Source: Yinghuangia soli | Lineage (GTDB): Bacteria > Actinomycetota > Actinomycetes > Streptomycetales > Streptomycetaceae | Reading direction: 5' to 3' | Length of the DNA stretch: 64,000 bases | NCBI RefSeq assembly: GCF_021502675.1 | Contig: NZ_JAKFHA010000005.1 | Coordinates: 269,346 to 333,345 of the forward strand | Shown here: piece after piece, positions 52,228 to 59,195 of the stretch | Numbering within the stretch: position 1 is the first letter of the stretch | Layout of the letters: each line of letters opens with the position of its first letter | The notes under the pieces: generated by a model | The model's database searches: none | The model's input: the letters and a program-made list of their open reading frames with translations, nothing else | What the model was told of the DNA's origin: nothing | Position numbers and translations under genes: made by a program

Positions 52228-52266
52228 AAGCGACGCAGGGACCGTACGGAAACCCCCTGCTCAGAC

Positions 52267-52302
52267 GTGTGGCCCGCGGGACGGTCGGTCCGCGGGCCAC
52301 AC
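52267..52302. terminator. convergent hairpin terminator
   Basis: GTGTGGCCCGCGG (52267-52279) pairs with CCGCGGGCCACAC (52290-52302), a perfect 13-bp stem between the convergent M56 peptidase and VOC genes. Confidence 0.8.
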
Positions 52303-52342
52303 ATCTGCGCAGGCCCGTACAGGGCGGACCCGCATTGCGCCG

Positions 52343-53788: not shown

Positions 53789-55473
53789 CCGACCACAAGA
53801 CGCTCACCGTCGCGCTGTTCACGGTCTTCATCGTCGCGACCCTCGCCATCACCGTGGTGGCCGGCCGCCGCACCCGCAGCGCCGCCGACTTCTACGCGGG
53901 CGGCCGGTCGTTCTCCCCGCTGCAGAACGGCGTGGCCATCGGCGGCGACTACATGTCCGCCGCGTCCTTCCTGGGCATCGCCGGCATCCTCGCGCTCTCC
54001 GGGTACGACGGCTTCCTGTACTCCATCGGCTTCCTGGTGGCCTGGATCGTCGCGCTGCTCCTGGTCGCCGAACCGCTGCGCAACAGCGGCCGGTTCACCA
54101 TGGCCGACGCCATCTCGGAGCGGCTGCGCTCGCCGCAGGTCCGGGTCGCCGCGGGCATCTCGACGATCGTCGTCTCGATCTTCTACCTGCTGGCCCAGAT
54201 GGTCGGCGCAGCCTCGGTCATTTCGCTGCTGCTCGGGGTGTCCTCGGACGCGTCCCGGATCTGGACGATCGTCGCGGTCGGCGCGCTCATGATCTTCTAC
54301 GTCACGGTCGGCGGCATGAAGGGCACCACCTGGGTGCAGATCGTCAAGGCCGTCCTGCTGATGATCGGCGCCTGCGTCATGACCGTGTGGGTGCTGGCGA
54401 AGTTCGACTTCGACATCTCCCACCTGCTCGGCGCCGCCGCCGACCAGTCCGGCAAGGGCGACGGCTTCCTGCAGCCCGGCCTCAAGTACGGCGCCACCGA
54501 CGGCTGGTCCCGGCTCGACCTGATCAGCCTCGGCATCGCGCTCGTCCTCGGCACCGCCGCACTGCCGCACATCCTGGTCCGCTTCTACACCGTGCCGGAC
54601 GCCAAGGCCGCCCGGAAGTCGGTCAACTGGGCGATCGGCATCATCGGCAGCTTCTACCTGATGACGCTGGTCATCGGCTTCGGCGCGGCGGCGCTGGTGG
54701 GCAGCAAGGCCATCAAGACCGCCGACCCGTCCGGCAACACCGCGGCCACCCGCCTCGCCGAGCACCTCGGCGGCGGACCGGGCAGCAACGGCGGCGCCGT
54801 CATGCTCGCCTTCATCGCCGCGGTCGCCTTCGCCACCATCCTCGCGGTGGTCGCCGGGCTCACCCTGGCCTCGTCGTCCTCCTTCGCCCACGACCTGTAC
54901 GCCGGGGTCTTCCGGCGCGGCCGGACCACGGACGCCGGCGAGGTCAGGGTCGCCAAGATCGCCGCGATCGTCATCGGCGCGGTCGCCATCGCCCTGTCGG
55001 TGTTCGCCCGCGAGCTCAACGTCGCGTTCCTGGTCGCGCTGGCCTTCGCGATCGCCGCCTCGGCCAACCTCCCGGCGATCGTCTTCTCGCTCTTCTGGCG
55101 GCGCTTCACCAAGACCGGCGCGATCGCGGGCGTCTTCGGCGGCCTGATCTCGGCGATCGTCGTGGTCGCTCTGTCGCCGATCGTGTGGGGCGGCGCGAGC
55201 AGCACCAAGCCCGCGGTCACCCTCACCGCGGCCCAGGCCGACAAGTGCGGAGTGCCGGCCGCGTCCACGTCCGTCGGCAACGCCACCGCGCTCGTCTCGT
55301 GCACCAAGGTCGCCCCGATCCCGCTGGAGAACCCCGGCCTGATCTCCATCCCGGTCGGATTCGTGTGCGCGGCGGCCGGCACCTGGCTCAGCAGCCGGCG
55401 CCGCACCGACGAGGACGACGTGGCCTTCGAGGAACTGGAGGTACGGTCGCTCACCGGCGTGGGCGCCCACTGA
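53785..55473 (+). CDS. actP: sodium/solute symporter, acetate-type (ActP/MctC-like)
   Basis: 562 aa SSS-family transporter with 13 or so hydrophobic helices. Motifs: GGRSFSPLQNGVAIGGDYMSAASFLGIAGILALSGYDG at the N terminus, LVRFYTVPDAKAARKSVNWA near the middle and IAASANLPAIVFSLFWRRFTKTGAIAGVFGGL near the C terminus. These match cation/acetate or monocarboxylate symporters. A loop near residue 480 carries two Cys and is unlike the core. Start GTG 53785 overlaps the DUF485 stop by four nucleotides. Substrate by family is acetate, pyruvate or propionate; not proved here. Confidence 0.9.
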   Translation: MTDHKTLTVALFTVFIVATLAITVVAGRRTRSAADFYAGGRSFSPLQNGVAIGGDYMSAASFLGIAGILALSGYDGFLYSIGFLVAWIVALLLVAEPLRNSGRFTMADAISERLRSPQVRVAAGISTIVVSIFYLLAQMVGAASVISLLLGVSSDASRIWTIVAVGALMIFYVTVGGMKGTTWVQIVKAVLLMIGACVMTVWVLAKFDFDISHLLGAAADQSGKGDGFLQPGLKYGATDGWSRLDLISLGIALVLGTAALPHILVRFYTVPDAKAARKSVNWAIGIIGSFYLMTLVIGFGAAALVGSKAIKTADPSGNTAATRLAEHLGGGPGSNGGAVMLAFIAAVAFATILAVVAGLTLASSSSFAHDLYAGVFRRGRTTDAGEVRVAKIAAIVIGAVAIALSVFARELNVAFLVALAFAIAASANLPAIVFSLFWRRFTKTGAIAGVFGGLISAIVVVALSPIVWGGASSTKPAVTLTAAQADKCGVPAASTSVGNATALVSCTKVAPIPLENPGLISIPVGFVCAAAGTWLSSRRRTDEDDVAFEELEVRSLTGVGAH

Positions 55474-55665: not shown

Positions 55666-56940
55666 GTGGATGCCATGGCTCCATCTCCTCGCACTCCAGG
55701 ACGCGCCCCGGGCCCGGGCGCTTTCCGGGTCGTCGCGCTGGTCGCGCTGGGCATCGCGCTCTTCCTCGGCGCGATCATGACCGGCGACAGCATGTCGGAC
55801 CTGCACGGCTCCGGCTCGGCCCACGACGGGCACGGCACGATGAGCGGCATGGCCGGGATGGCCGCCGCACTCGGCGAGCCGACTCTGGACCGGATGTTCG
55901 GCTGGTACCCCGAGCCGCTGTTCGTCGCGGGCAGCATCGCCGCCGTCCTGATCTACGGTGCGGGGATCGCGCGGCTCCGCAGACGCGGGGACAAATGGCC
56001 CATCGGCCGTACGCTCGCCTGGCTCGCCGGCGTGGCCTCGGTGCTTCTCTCCACCTCCAGCGGACTCGCCGCCTACGGCACCGCGCTGTTCAGCGTGCAC
56101 ATGATCCAGCACATGATCCTGAGCATGCTCTCGCCGATCCTGCTGCTGCTCGGCGCGCCGATCACCCTGGCCCTGCGGTCCCTCAAGCCGGCCGGCCGGG
56201 ACCAGGACGGCAACGCCAAGCGCGGCCCGCGCGAGATCCTGCTTGCCGTGCTGCACAGCCGCTTCGCGGCGGTCATGTCGTCGCCTGCGGTCACCCTCCC
56301 GCTGTTCATCGCCAGCCTCTACGTGCTCTACTTCACGCCGCTGTTCGACCTGGCGATGGGCAACATGTGGGGCCACCGCTGGATGATGATCCACTTCCTC
56401 GCGGTCGGCCTGCTGTTCTTCTGGCCGATCATGGGCATCGACCCGGCGCCGCGGAAGCACGGCTATGTGATGAAGATGCTCGAACTGTTCGCGGGGATGC
56501 CGTTCCACGCGTTCTTCGGCGTCGCGGTCATGATGTCGTCGTCGCTGATCGTCGACTCGTTCGCCAAGCCGCCCGCCGCGTGGGGCACGGACGTCCTGGC
56601 CGACCAGCAGATGGGCGGCGGCATCGCGTGGGCGTTCGGCGAGGTGCCGACGGTCATCGTGCTGCTGGTGATCTTCTCGCAGTGGATGCGCTCCGAGGAG
56701 CGCCTGGCCCGCCGCAAGGACCGCGCCGCGGACCGCGACGGCGACGCCGAACTCGACGCGTACAACGCCTACCTGGCCCGGCTGGGCGGCAGCGCTTCGG
56801 CAGCCGGCAAGGCAGCTGACGAGGCGGCCGACAGCGCCACCGACAGCGCGGCGGACAACGCGATCGACGAGGACGCGGCGAAGGCCGATGCGGCCGCGCC
56901 GACCGCTGATGCAGCAGCGGCGGCGGAGCCTGCCAAGTAG
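55666..56940 (+). CDS. CtaG-like cytochrome c oxidase assembly membrane protein
   Basis: 424 aa from GTG 55666 (ATG 55675 is an alternative; both have weak ribosome sites). Nine or so hydrophobic segments match the Caa3_CtaG family: HMIQHMILSMLSPILLLLGAP near 145, LFDLAMGNMWGHRWMMIHFLAVGLLFFWPIMGIDP, and GMPFHAFFGVAVMMSSS. A His/Met-rich loop (HGSGSAHDGHGTMSGMAGM) near residue 50 may bind copper. The C-terminal 70 residues are an acidic Ala/Asp tail. It may supply copper to the oxidase. A strong terminator follows. Confidence 0.88.
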   Translation: MDAMAPSPRTPGRAPGPGAFRVVALVALGIALFLGAIMTGDSMSDLHGSGSAHDGHGTMSGMAGMAAALGEPTLDRMFGWYPEPLFVAGSIAAVLIYGAGIARLRRRGDKWPIGRTLAWLAGVASVLLSTSSGLAAYGTALFSVHMIQHMILSMLSPILLLLGAPITLALRSLKPAGRDQDGNAKRGPREILLAVLHSRFAAVMSSPAVTLPLFIASLYVLYFTPLFDLAMGNMWGHRWMMIHFLAVGLLFFWPIMGIDPAPRKHGYVMKMLELFAGMPFHAFFGVAVMMSSSLIVDSFAKPPAAWGTDVLADQQMGGGIAWAFGEVPTVIVLLVIFSQWMRSEERLARRKDRAADRDGDAELDAYNAYLARLGGSASAAGKAADEAADSATDSAADNAIDEDAAKADAAAPTADAAAAAEPAK

Positions 56941-56974: not shown

Positions 56975-57008
56975 TACGGCCCCACCCCCGACCGGGGGTG
57001 GGGCCGTA
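56975..57008. terminator. hairpin terminator
   Basis: TACGGCCCCACCCCCG (56975-56990) pairs with its exact complement at 56993-57008 across a 2-nt centre, just downstream of the CtaG-like gene. Confidence 0.85.
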
Positions 57009-57918: not shown

Positions 57919-58437
57919 TCAGGCGTAGGGGTCGGCGATCTCCCTCAGGCGGATGAGCGCGGTGCGCAGCTGGCTGCTGGAACGCTTGCCCAGATGCTTC
58001 GTCCAGGCCGCCTCGGTCTCCGCCTCCGCGACCCGCGCGACGGCGACCGCAGCCTCGCCGCGCGGTGCGATCTGCACCAGGCGGGCCCGCGCGTCGGCCG
58101 GGTCCGGGACGCGCCGCACGTACCCCGCCCGCTCCAACTGGTCGACGAGGAACCCCGCGGTCTGCTTGGTGACCCGGGCCTGCTCGGCCAGTTCCGATAT
58201 CCGCGTCCCGCCCGGACCGATCCGGGCGAACAGGCGGCCCTGGGCCACCGTGAGATCGCCGTACCCGGCCGCCGCCAGGGCGTCGACCACGCTCGTCTCC
58301 ATCGCCCGGTACGCGATGAAGCACAGCAGCCCGAGGTTCATACCGTCCGACTCCGCGCCCACTGCCGCAGAGTCGTCGTTCTCACCATCCACGCCGTCCA
58401 CGCTGTCCATCTCGCCTATGCCGTCCCCAACGCTCAT
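57919..58437 (-). CDS. MarR-family transcriptional regulator
   Basis: 172 aa winged-helix regulator. Core motifs: YRAMETSVVDALAAAGYGDLTVAQGRLFARIGPGG, ISELAEQARVTKQTAGFLVDQLERAGYVRRVPDPADARARLVQI and a C-terminal dimerisation helix. ATG 58437 is used; an ATG at 58341 (MNLGLLC) is also possible. It diverges from the mycothiol-type enzyme across a 46-bp near-perfect palindrome that is almost certainly its operator. Confidence 0.88.
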   Translation of the reverse strand: MSVGDGIGEMDSVDGVDGENDDSAAVGAESDGMNLGLLCFIAYRAMETSVVDALAAAGYGDLTVAQGRLFARIGPGGTRISELAEQARVTKQTAGFLVDQLERAGYVRRVPDPADARARLVQIAPRGEAAVAVARVAEAETEAAWTKHLGKRSSSQLRTALIRLREIADPYA

Positions 58438-58462
58438 GTCGCTGTGCCGTTCATCCCTTGAC

Positions 58463-58508
58463 TTTAGTACGAGCCTCTGACCAATATTAGTCAGAGGCTC
58501 GTACTAAA
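58463..58508. promoter_or_regulatory. 46-bp near-perfect palindrome, MarR operator
   Basis: TTTAGTACGAGCCTCTGAC (58463-58481) and its exact complement (58490-58508) flank CAATATTA; only one base pair of the whole element is mismatched. It lies 25 nt from the MarR start and ends immediately before an in-frame ATG at 58509, 30 nt before the chosen start of the divergent gene. It could also form a very stable cruciform or hairpin. Confidence 0.8.
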
Positions 58509-58538
58509 ATGAACCGCGCCGAGGGTGAGGAGCCGGCC

Positions 58539-59195
58539 ATGGCGGACCATGACGAGGTCTGGCGCGCGGTCGACGCGCAGCGGGCGGCGATCGCCGATCT
58601 GCTCGACGACCTGGCCCCGGACGAATGGGATGTCCCGTCGCTGTGCAGCGCCTGGCGCGTCCGCGACGTCGCCGCGCACCTGACACTCGCACACATGCCC
58701 GCCGGACGCGCCACGCTGGCCGTCCTGCGCGCCCGCGGCAGCTTCCACCGGATGATCCGCGACACCGCGGTACGCCAAGCCCGGCTACCCGCCGAGCAGT
58801 TCGCCCCCATGCTGCGCGCCATGGTCGGCTCGCGCCGTACCGCCCCGCTCATCACCCCGCTGGAACCGCTCATCGACAGCCTCGTGCACGGCCAGGACAT
58901 CGCCATCCCCCTGGCCCGCGACCTCCCGATGCCCACCGCCGCGGCAGCCACCGCGGCCACGCGCGTCTGGTCGGCTCAGTGGCTGTTCCGCCCACGCCGC
59001 AAGCTGGGCCCGGTACGCCTGGTAGCCACCGACCACACCTGGGCCGAAGGCGAGGGCCCCACGGTCGAAGGCCCCATGTCGGCGATCCTTCTCCTCCTCG
59101 CCGGCCGCACCCCCGCAGCCCTACCCCGACTCACCGGCCCCGGCCTACCCACCATCGAATCCCGCGCAGCAGCCGCATCCCGTCCGGCAGCCTGA
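58539..59195 (+). CDS. maleylpyruvate isomerase-family, mycothiol-dependent-type protein
   Basis: 218 aa protein of the DinB/MDMPI-like fold. Typical features are DEVWRAVDAQRAAIADLLDDLAPDEWDVPSLCSAWRVRDVAAHLTLAH at the N terminus, where the His would be a metal ligand, and LVHGQDIAIPL in the middle with the next metal His. The C-terminal half is the usual small domain. The substrate is unknown. ATG 58539 has GGTGAGGAG six nucleotides upstream and is preferred over 58509, which directly abuts the palindrome. Probably repressed by the divergent MarR protein. Confidence 0.85.
   Translation: MADHDEVWRAVDAQRAAIADLLDDLAPDEWDVPSLCSAWRVRDVAAHLTLAHMPAGRATLAVLRARGSFHRMIRDTAVRQARLPAEQFAPMLRAMVGSRRTAPLITPLEPLIDSLVHGQDIAIPLARDLPMPTAAAATAATRVWSAQWLFRPRRKLGPVRLVATDHTWAEGEGPTVEGPMSAILLLLAGRTPAALPRLTGPGLPTIESRAAAASRPAA

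Follow-up and report, generated by a model that had tools for sequence, protein, structure and literature searches.

A near-perfect 46-bp palindrome between divergent genes for a MarR-type repressor and a mycothiol-dependent enzyme is a probable double operator

A near-perfect palindrome of 46 bp lies at positions 58463-58508 of the window, the 64-kb stretch of DNA analyzed here, between a marR-type repressor gene and a divergent gene for an enzyme of the mycothiol-dependent type. We consider it about 88% probable that the palindrome is a double operator on which the product of the divergent marR gene would sit as two side-by-side dimers and repress both genes. What the analysis shows is the two sites, how well their number, spacing and sequence are conserved, an enzyme promoter conserved in relatives, and how scarce such sites are elsewhere; MarR binding, repression, cooperativity and a ligand are inferred. 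This is a regulatory element of a known kind that is unusually clear and well conserved, and the copy in the window is unusual mainly in its near-perfect mirror symmetry.

In the palindrome, 44 of the 46 bases are self-complementary. The earlier note on this DNA, made from the sequence alone, had described such a palindrome between MarR and mycothiol-type enzyme genes with perfect 19-bp arms around an AATATT core, and this description is correct in full, the single mismatched pair being C/A in the sequence TTTAGTACGAGCCTCTGAC-C-AATATT-A-GTCAGAGGCTCGTACTAAA. Ungapped extension lengthens the arms to 28 bp at 89%. With 22 of 23 pairs matched, it is the best 46-bp dyad of the 64-kb window, and the maxima in 30 first-order Markov simulations of the window were 16-18 of 23 pairs. 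The runner-up, at 52262-52307, is G+C-rich and matches 19 of 23 pairs.

The palindrome splits into two imperfect palindromes of 21 bp, centered on 58474 and 58497 and thus 23 bp apart. The MarR-side operator, TTAGTACGAGCCTCTGACCAA (58464-58484), has one mismatch to TTAGTNNGAGNCTCNNACTAA and a position weight matrix score of 23.0, and the enzyme-side operator, TTAGTCAGAGGCTCGTACTAA (58487-58507), has no mismatches to TTAGTNNGAGNCTCNNACTAA and scores 25.2. For comparison we used the best 80 of 107 MarR relatives from a scan of genome contigs, which are 55-76% identical to the window protein. To model the site, we started from a typed consensus and trained on the window and these 80 loci, which gave the symmetric consensus TTAGTCAGAGACTCTGACTAA. 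With this matrix, whose training loci are also the ones scored, 81/81 loci have a best single site above the 99% point of shuffled upstream sequence, and 80/81 have a pair score above it. When both sites were required to score above 3 bits, operator pairs were found in 77 of the 81 loci, that is, in 76 of 80 relatives, with a spacing of 22 bp (58 pairs), 23 bp (12 pairs) or 21 bp (7 pairs). The MarR gene has a palindromic operator beside it that is conserved with it, and the two neighboring sites keep a spacing of 21-23 bp, close to a whole number of helical turns. The suggestion in the earlier note of two stacked operators is therefore supported by conservation.

Four of the 80 relatives (L055, L075, L101, and L106) did not pass the two-site test. 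L055 lacks an enzyme hit and has a single site (13.4) above the cutoff, and the other three have one operator site each. Given that L101 and L106 keep the divergent enzyme gene despite the single site, two sites are not strictly required. In L075 the enzyme gene is downstream of marR and in line with it, so that in this one case lost divergence accompanies a lost second site. We then counted 22 more pairs in 30 further loci, three of which duplicate earlier loci, for a total of 99 pairs in 111 loci; 91 of the pairs are distinct, and all counts out of 99 given below take in eight pairs that duplicate the operators of another. The remaining eight of the 30 further loci fall below the pair cutoff. 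By eye, six of these have two sites with GTTCGA/GTACGA halves, and L144 and L146 have one site each. Upstream of marR in L132, L133, L134, L135, L138, L139, and L143, some half-sites are GTTCGA or GTACGA, not GTCAGA, while the spacing is kept, a possible case of operator drift in these variant lineages.

The marR-type gene (57919-58437, reverse strand) was identified from its open reading frame, Pfam matches and conservation, and encodes 172 amino acids, although its start codon is uncertain; the conserved part of the protein starts near residue 34. Its winged-helix domain scores above the curated cutoffs of both Pfam MarR_2 (PF12802, E 1.8e-10, 41.3 bits, cutoff 27) and Pfam MarR (PF01047, E 3.8e-9, 36.7 bits, cutoff 24.6), which places it in the MarR family. 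Solved structures that resemble it are remote relatives only, the best being 9u7b (E 3.1e-10). In the recognition helix region, TKQTAGFLVDQL, residues T90-A94, L97, V98, Q100, and L101 are the same in 81/81 rows, and G95 (79/81), F96 (80/81), and D99 (77/81) are nearly invariant. We also examined 29 MarR paralogues, which are 34-52% identical and have other residues in the recognition helix. The window motif, allowing up to four mismatches, is absent from all 29 paralogue loci. Weaker related sites are present at at least 10 of the 29 (shuffled 99% point 3.85), with a best score of 16.0, whereas the best sites of the 81 loci have a median score of 28.6. Because paralogues with other helix residues bear related sites, helix and site are not strictly coupled. 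An LCFIAY stretch of the window protein resembles OhrR, whose conserved N-terminal sensing cysteine would correspond to position 39. This position is not conserved, with Leu in 52 of the 81 rows, Met in 21 and Cys in 8, and we rejected an OhrR-type redox MarR.

The divergent gene most likely occupies 58539-59195 on the forward strand, as judged from TIGR03083, Pfam and alignment, and encodes a maleylpyruvate isomerase family mycothiol-dependent enzyme (MDMPI type). Like the mycothiol-dependent enzymes of TIGR03083/MDMPI, it scores above the family cutoff (NCBIfam TIGR03083, 83.6 bits versus 50), and it scores 30.0 bits against Pfam MDMPI_N (cutoff 24.2). A His/acid/His set of metal ligands is a mark of TIGR03083 enzymes, and H47, D113, and H117, the predicted ligands, are present in 79/79 rows. 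A search of solved structures gave no sequence match to the enzyme at E 0.001. The earlier note had the palindrome abutting the first in-frame ATG of the enzyme; 58509 is indeed the first in-frame ATG, but it is probably not where the enzyme starts. A likely ribosome-binding site, GAGGAG (58527-58532, forward strand), ends six bases upstream of the ATG at 58539, and the column adjoining this start has Met in 57 of 79 rows (the window and 78 relatives), in an alignment whose rows were translated from a fixed upstream stretch, so that the starts of the relatives are also inferred. With a start at 58539, the palindrome would sit in the promoter region and not against the coding sequence.

By tblastn, a relative of the enzyme is directly divergent from marR in 77 of 80 loci, the exceptions being L055 and L062, which have no enzyme hit, and L075 with its downstream enzyme. 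An MDMPI-type gene is also divergent in all 30 of the further loci, the three duplicates included. No third gene is conserved to this degree: beyond the two clusters of the pair itself, no cluster covers more than 23 of 80 loci under single linkage with spurious overlapping frames included. In 23 of 80 loci (L035-L114; single linkage), a putative ABC-transporter ATPase-like cluster, going by one example row, lies no more than 4.5 kb from marR.

The MarR protein is distributed in a patchy manner. Of 394 family genomes, 16, counting that of the window, gave a match at E up to 1e-42, and neither of the two other genomes of the genus that we examined did so. In a sample of the class it was detected in 18 of 394 genomes, including the window's genome and two of the family. 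Such a pattern could reflect either acquisition by transfer or loss.

A conserved promoter for the enzyme gene appears to overlie the double operator. In the window, the predicted -35 box is TTGACT (58458-58463, forward strand), of which TTGAC is conserved in relatives, and promoter scoring places the -10 box, CAATAT, at 58482-58487, with the 18-bp spacer inside the MarR-side operator. In 51 of 77 pairs, GTCAA, which reads TTGAC on the enzyme strand, is located just outside the MarR-side operator, at a distance of 0-2 nt, and the -35 box matches at 5 or 6 of 6 positions in 72/99 pairs. The -10 box of the relatives falls at the junction of the two sites, the best one beginning 18 bases inside the operator edge in 89/99. 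The combined score reaches at least 8.5, the 95% point of shuffled flanks, in 67/99 pairs versus 6.9% of shuffled flanks, so conservation in relatives supports the predicted enzyme promoter. The window's own copy, TTGACT-N18-CAATAT, scores 8.0, below the 8.5 mark, and a strict consensus promoter scan of 58380-58620 reported none. On the reverse strand, a candidate marR promoter, TTCATT-N18-TAATAT, lies over the AATATT core and scores 7.5. It consists of a weak -35 box at 58508-58513 that is not conserved in relatives and a -10 box at 58484-58489, found by promoter scoring, that overlaps the enzyme -10. Scores of at least 8.5 in the marR direction occur in 12/99 pairs versus 4.7% of shuffled flanks (mean 6.80 versus 6.63), so this promoter is not conserved, and the case for autoregulation is one of position only.

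Based on this arrangement, we picture one MarR dimer on 58464-58484 and a second on 58487-58507. Their separation of about two helical turns would put both on roughly one face of the DNA. Within the enzyme promoter, the MarR-side site would fill the spacer between the enzyme -35 (TTGACT) and -10 (CAATAT), and the enzyme-side site would cover the start region of the enzyme promoter and the candidate marR promoter. Since the operators overlie both promoter regions, bound repressor would shut the enzyme gene as well as its own gene. A small-molecule ligand, plausibly an electrophile or an aromatic compound related to the enzyme substrate, would release it.

The position of the AATATT core suggests a further possibility, which is that the core serves as a -10 both ways in a shared bidirectional promoter, where polymerase could bind in either orientation and the operators would arbitrate. 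We regard this as a tentative reading, at somewhat less than even odds, and it would add to the double-operator explanation and not replace it. In the window copy both -10 hexamers overlap the same bases and both have 18-bp spacers, and bidirectional promoters with a shared -10 have been described in bacteria (PMC12825309). The palindrome resembles the promoters presented there in its AT-rich symmetric core and in having -10-like hexamers on both strands, and differs in that its marR-direction promoter lacks the support of conservation. A full TAnnnT is found in the enzyme direction in 72/99 pairs, but in the marR direction in only 42/99, and for this reason we give the shared promoter less weight. 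The marR-direction scores given above, which hardly exceed those of shuffled flanks, also count against it, as does the finding that the best marR -10 is at the core position in only 38/99. Furthermore, the operator ends also fix the sequence of the junction, so its AT content proves no -10.

Two similar palindromic operators already make a quasi-palindrome, yet the mirror of the window goes further, with 20 of 21 positions matched versus at most 19 in 90 distinct relatives (19 in one). When operators were combined across loci, none of 8010 combinations reached 20 and 13 reached 19. Such a copy could be the product of quasi-palindrome correction, a mechanism known from E. coli (PMC7202029), if a template switch overwrote the MarR-side operator with an inverted copy of the enzyme-side one. 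It would account for origin, not function, and we think it possible, with the balance leaning against it. In its favor, the mirror count of 20 drops to 15.5 when operators are swapped with the nearest relative, the largest excess among the 99. In addition, among the 14 nearest relatives listed, no MarR-side outer half is GTACGA, as it is in the window, and four (L035, L042, L132, and L085) have GTACGA on the enzyme side, a pattern that suggests inverted copying of the enzyme-side arm. Among all 98 relatives, however, GTACGA is the MarR-side outer half in six, more distant ones, so point changes could have produced the arm of the window. One outlier in 91 could also be due to chance or selection, and the nearest relative is just 76% identical, with weak placement in the MarR tree (SH-aLRT 15). 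Over the 99 loci, operators match their own partners no better than swapped neighbors (mirror 14.24 versus 14.18, Wilcoxon p 0.40), and general concerted evolution of the two operators is not supported. Shuffling the weakly constrained positions, without regard to kinship, gave p 0.009 for the mirror, yet also 0.0074 for direct identity.

The two sites normally score unequally. Over the 77 pairs, including the window, enzyme-side sites average 22.5 and MarR-side sites 26.8, and the scores in the window are 25.2 and 23.0, respectively. One could combine these ideas into a two-dimer switch in which a shared -10 sets the direction of transcription and a template switch made the mirror and evened unequal operators, a combination that we find unlikely. 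A near-perfect mirror double operator (19/21, hairpin -21.5 kcal/mol) is also found upstream of marR in L128, from the same family, and its two sites share a TTCCCTG/CAGGGAA centre.

The earlier note had also offered a cruciform, and it is very improbable that extrusion of the 19-bp arms into a cruciform or hairpin is itself what regulates these genes. The hairpin of the window copy, at -20.9 kcal/mol with DNA parameters, is the second most stable of 99 after L128, but this stability is not conserved, and the median of -7.5 kcal/mol over the 99 pairs, far from the window value, argues against the hairpin being the selected feature. Mirror matches over the 21 positions range from 11 to 19 in the 90 distinct relatives, no terminator-like site was found in 58380-58620, and with transcription starting at the core, the whole palindrome would be present in neither mRNA.

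Searches for further copies point to a site dedicated to this locus. In its own genome, a search with the operator pattern yielded two more sites, each with 3 mismatches, versus 1 for the reversed control, and a shorter pattern gave one site at 2 mismatches (control: 5), which is chance level. A 62-base query against the 9.7-Mb genome matched only itself and its own reverse strand. Given that there is no other convincing operator copy in the genome, the repressor looks dedicated to this locus. In 23 whole genomes, a search for TNAGTCAGANNNTCTGACTNA with up to 2 mismatches found 20 sites in 15 of the genomes, compared to 7 for a reversed control pattern, and 18 of the 20 are at the marR-enzyme locus by coordinates, with two elsewhere. 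This search found no site in the other eight genomes, whose operators presumably deviate more. We can practically dismiss the idea that a mobile or dispersed repeat of the REP/MITE kind landed in the intergenic region, which the length of the dyad and the patchy presence of MarR might suggest and which the earlier note had named as a finding that would count against an operator, since the assembled genome holds a single copy and the two sites travel with the gene pair across many genera.

The double operator can be placed beside known MarR systems. MexR of Pseudomonas aeruginosa has two adjacent sites in the intergenic region between divergent regulator and target genes; it is gammaproteobacterial, its target is an efflux system, and its motif is other than that of the window. 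AesR of Corynebacterium glutamicum is described as a MarR regulator between divergent operons that is released by copper, nickel or zinc, and the authors speculate that one dimer and then a pair of dimers bind (PMC13413800). In layout, the likeness to the present element lies in a MarR regulator, divergent operons and proposed paired dimers. AesR differs in its operator sequence and in its divergent genes, ncgl0018-ncgl0017 (DsbA/CcdA), and its two repeats are unlike each other, whereas the two sites of the window are much more similar. In the open-access literature we found no report of the MarR/mycothiol-enzyme pair or of the motif, a motif search being little informative. For this pair, which is widespread in actinobacteria, the present analysis provides a target, a precise candidate operator and its spacing. 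The naturally graded operators, one of them mirror-perfect, also make the pair a ready system for studying repression by two dimers.

Several other features of the window were noted around the pair. An open frame at 54387 gave no match in a Pfam search. Adjoining marR, the segment 57161-57862 encodes a protein that resembles the b subunit of ATP synthase (PF00430, 75.7 bits). A G+C-rich dyad at 56977-57006, with 14 of 15 pairs matched, closely follows the open frame 55666-56940 and is perhaps a terminator.
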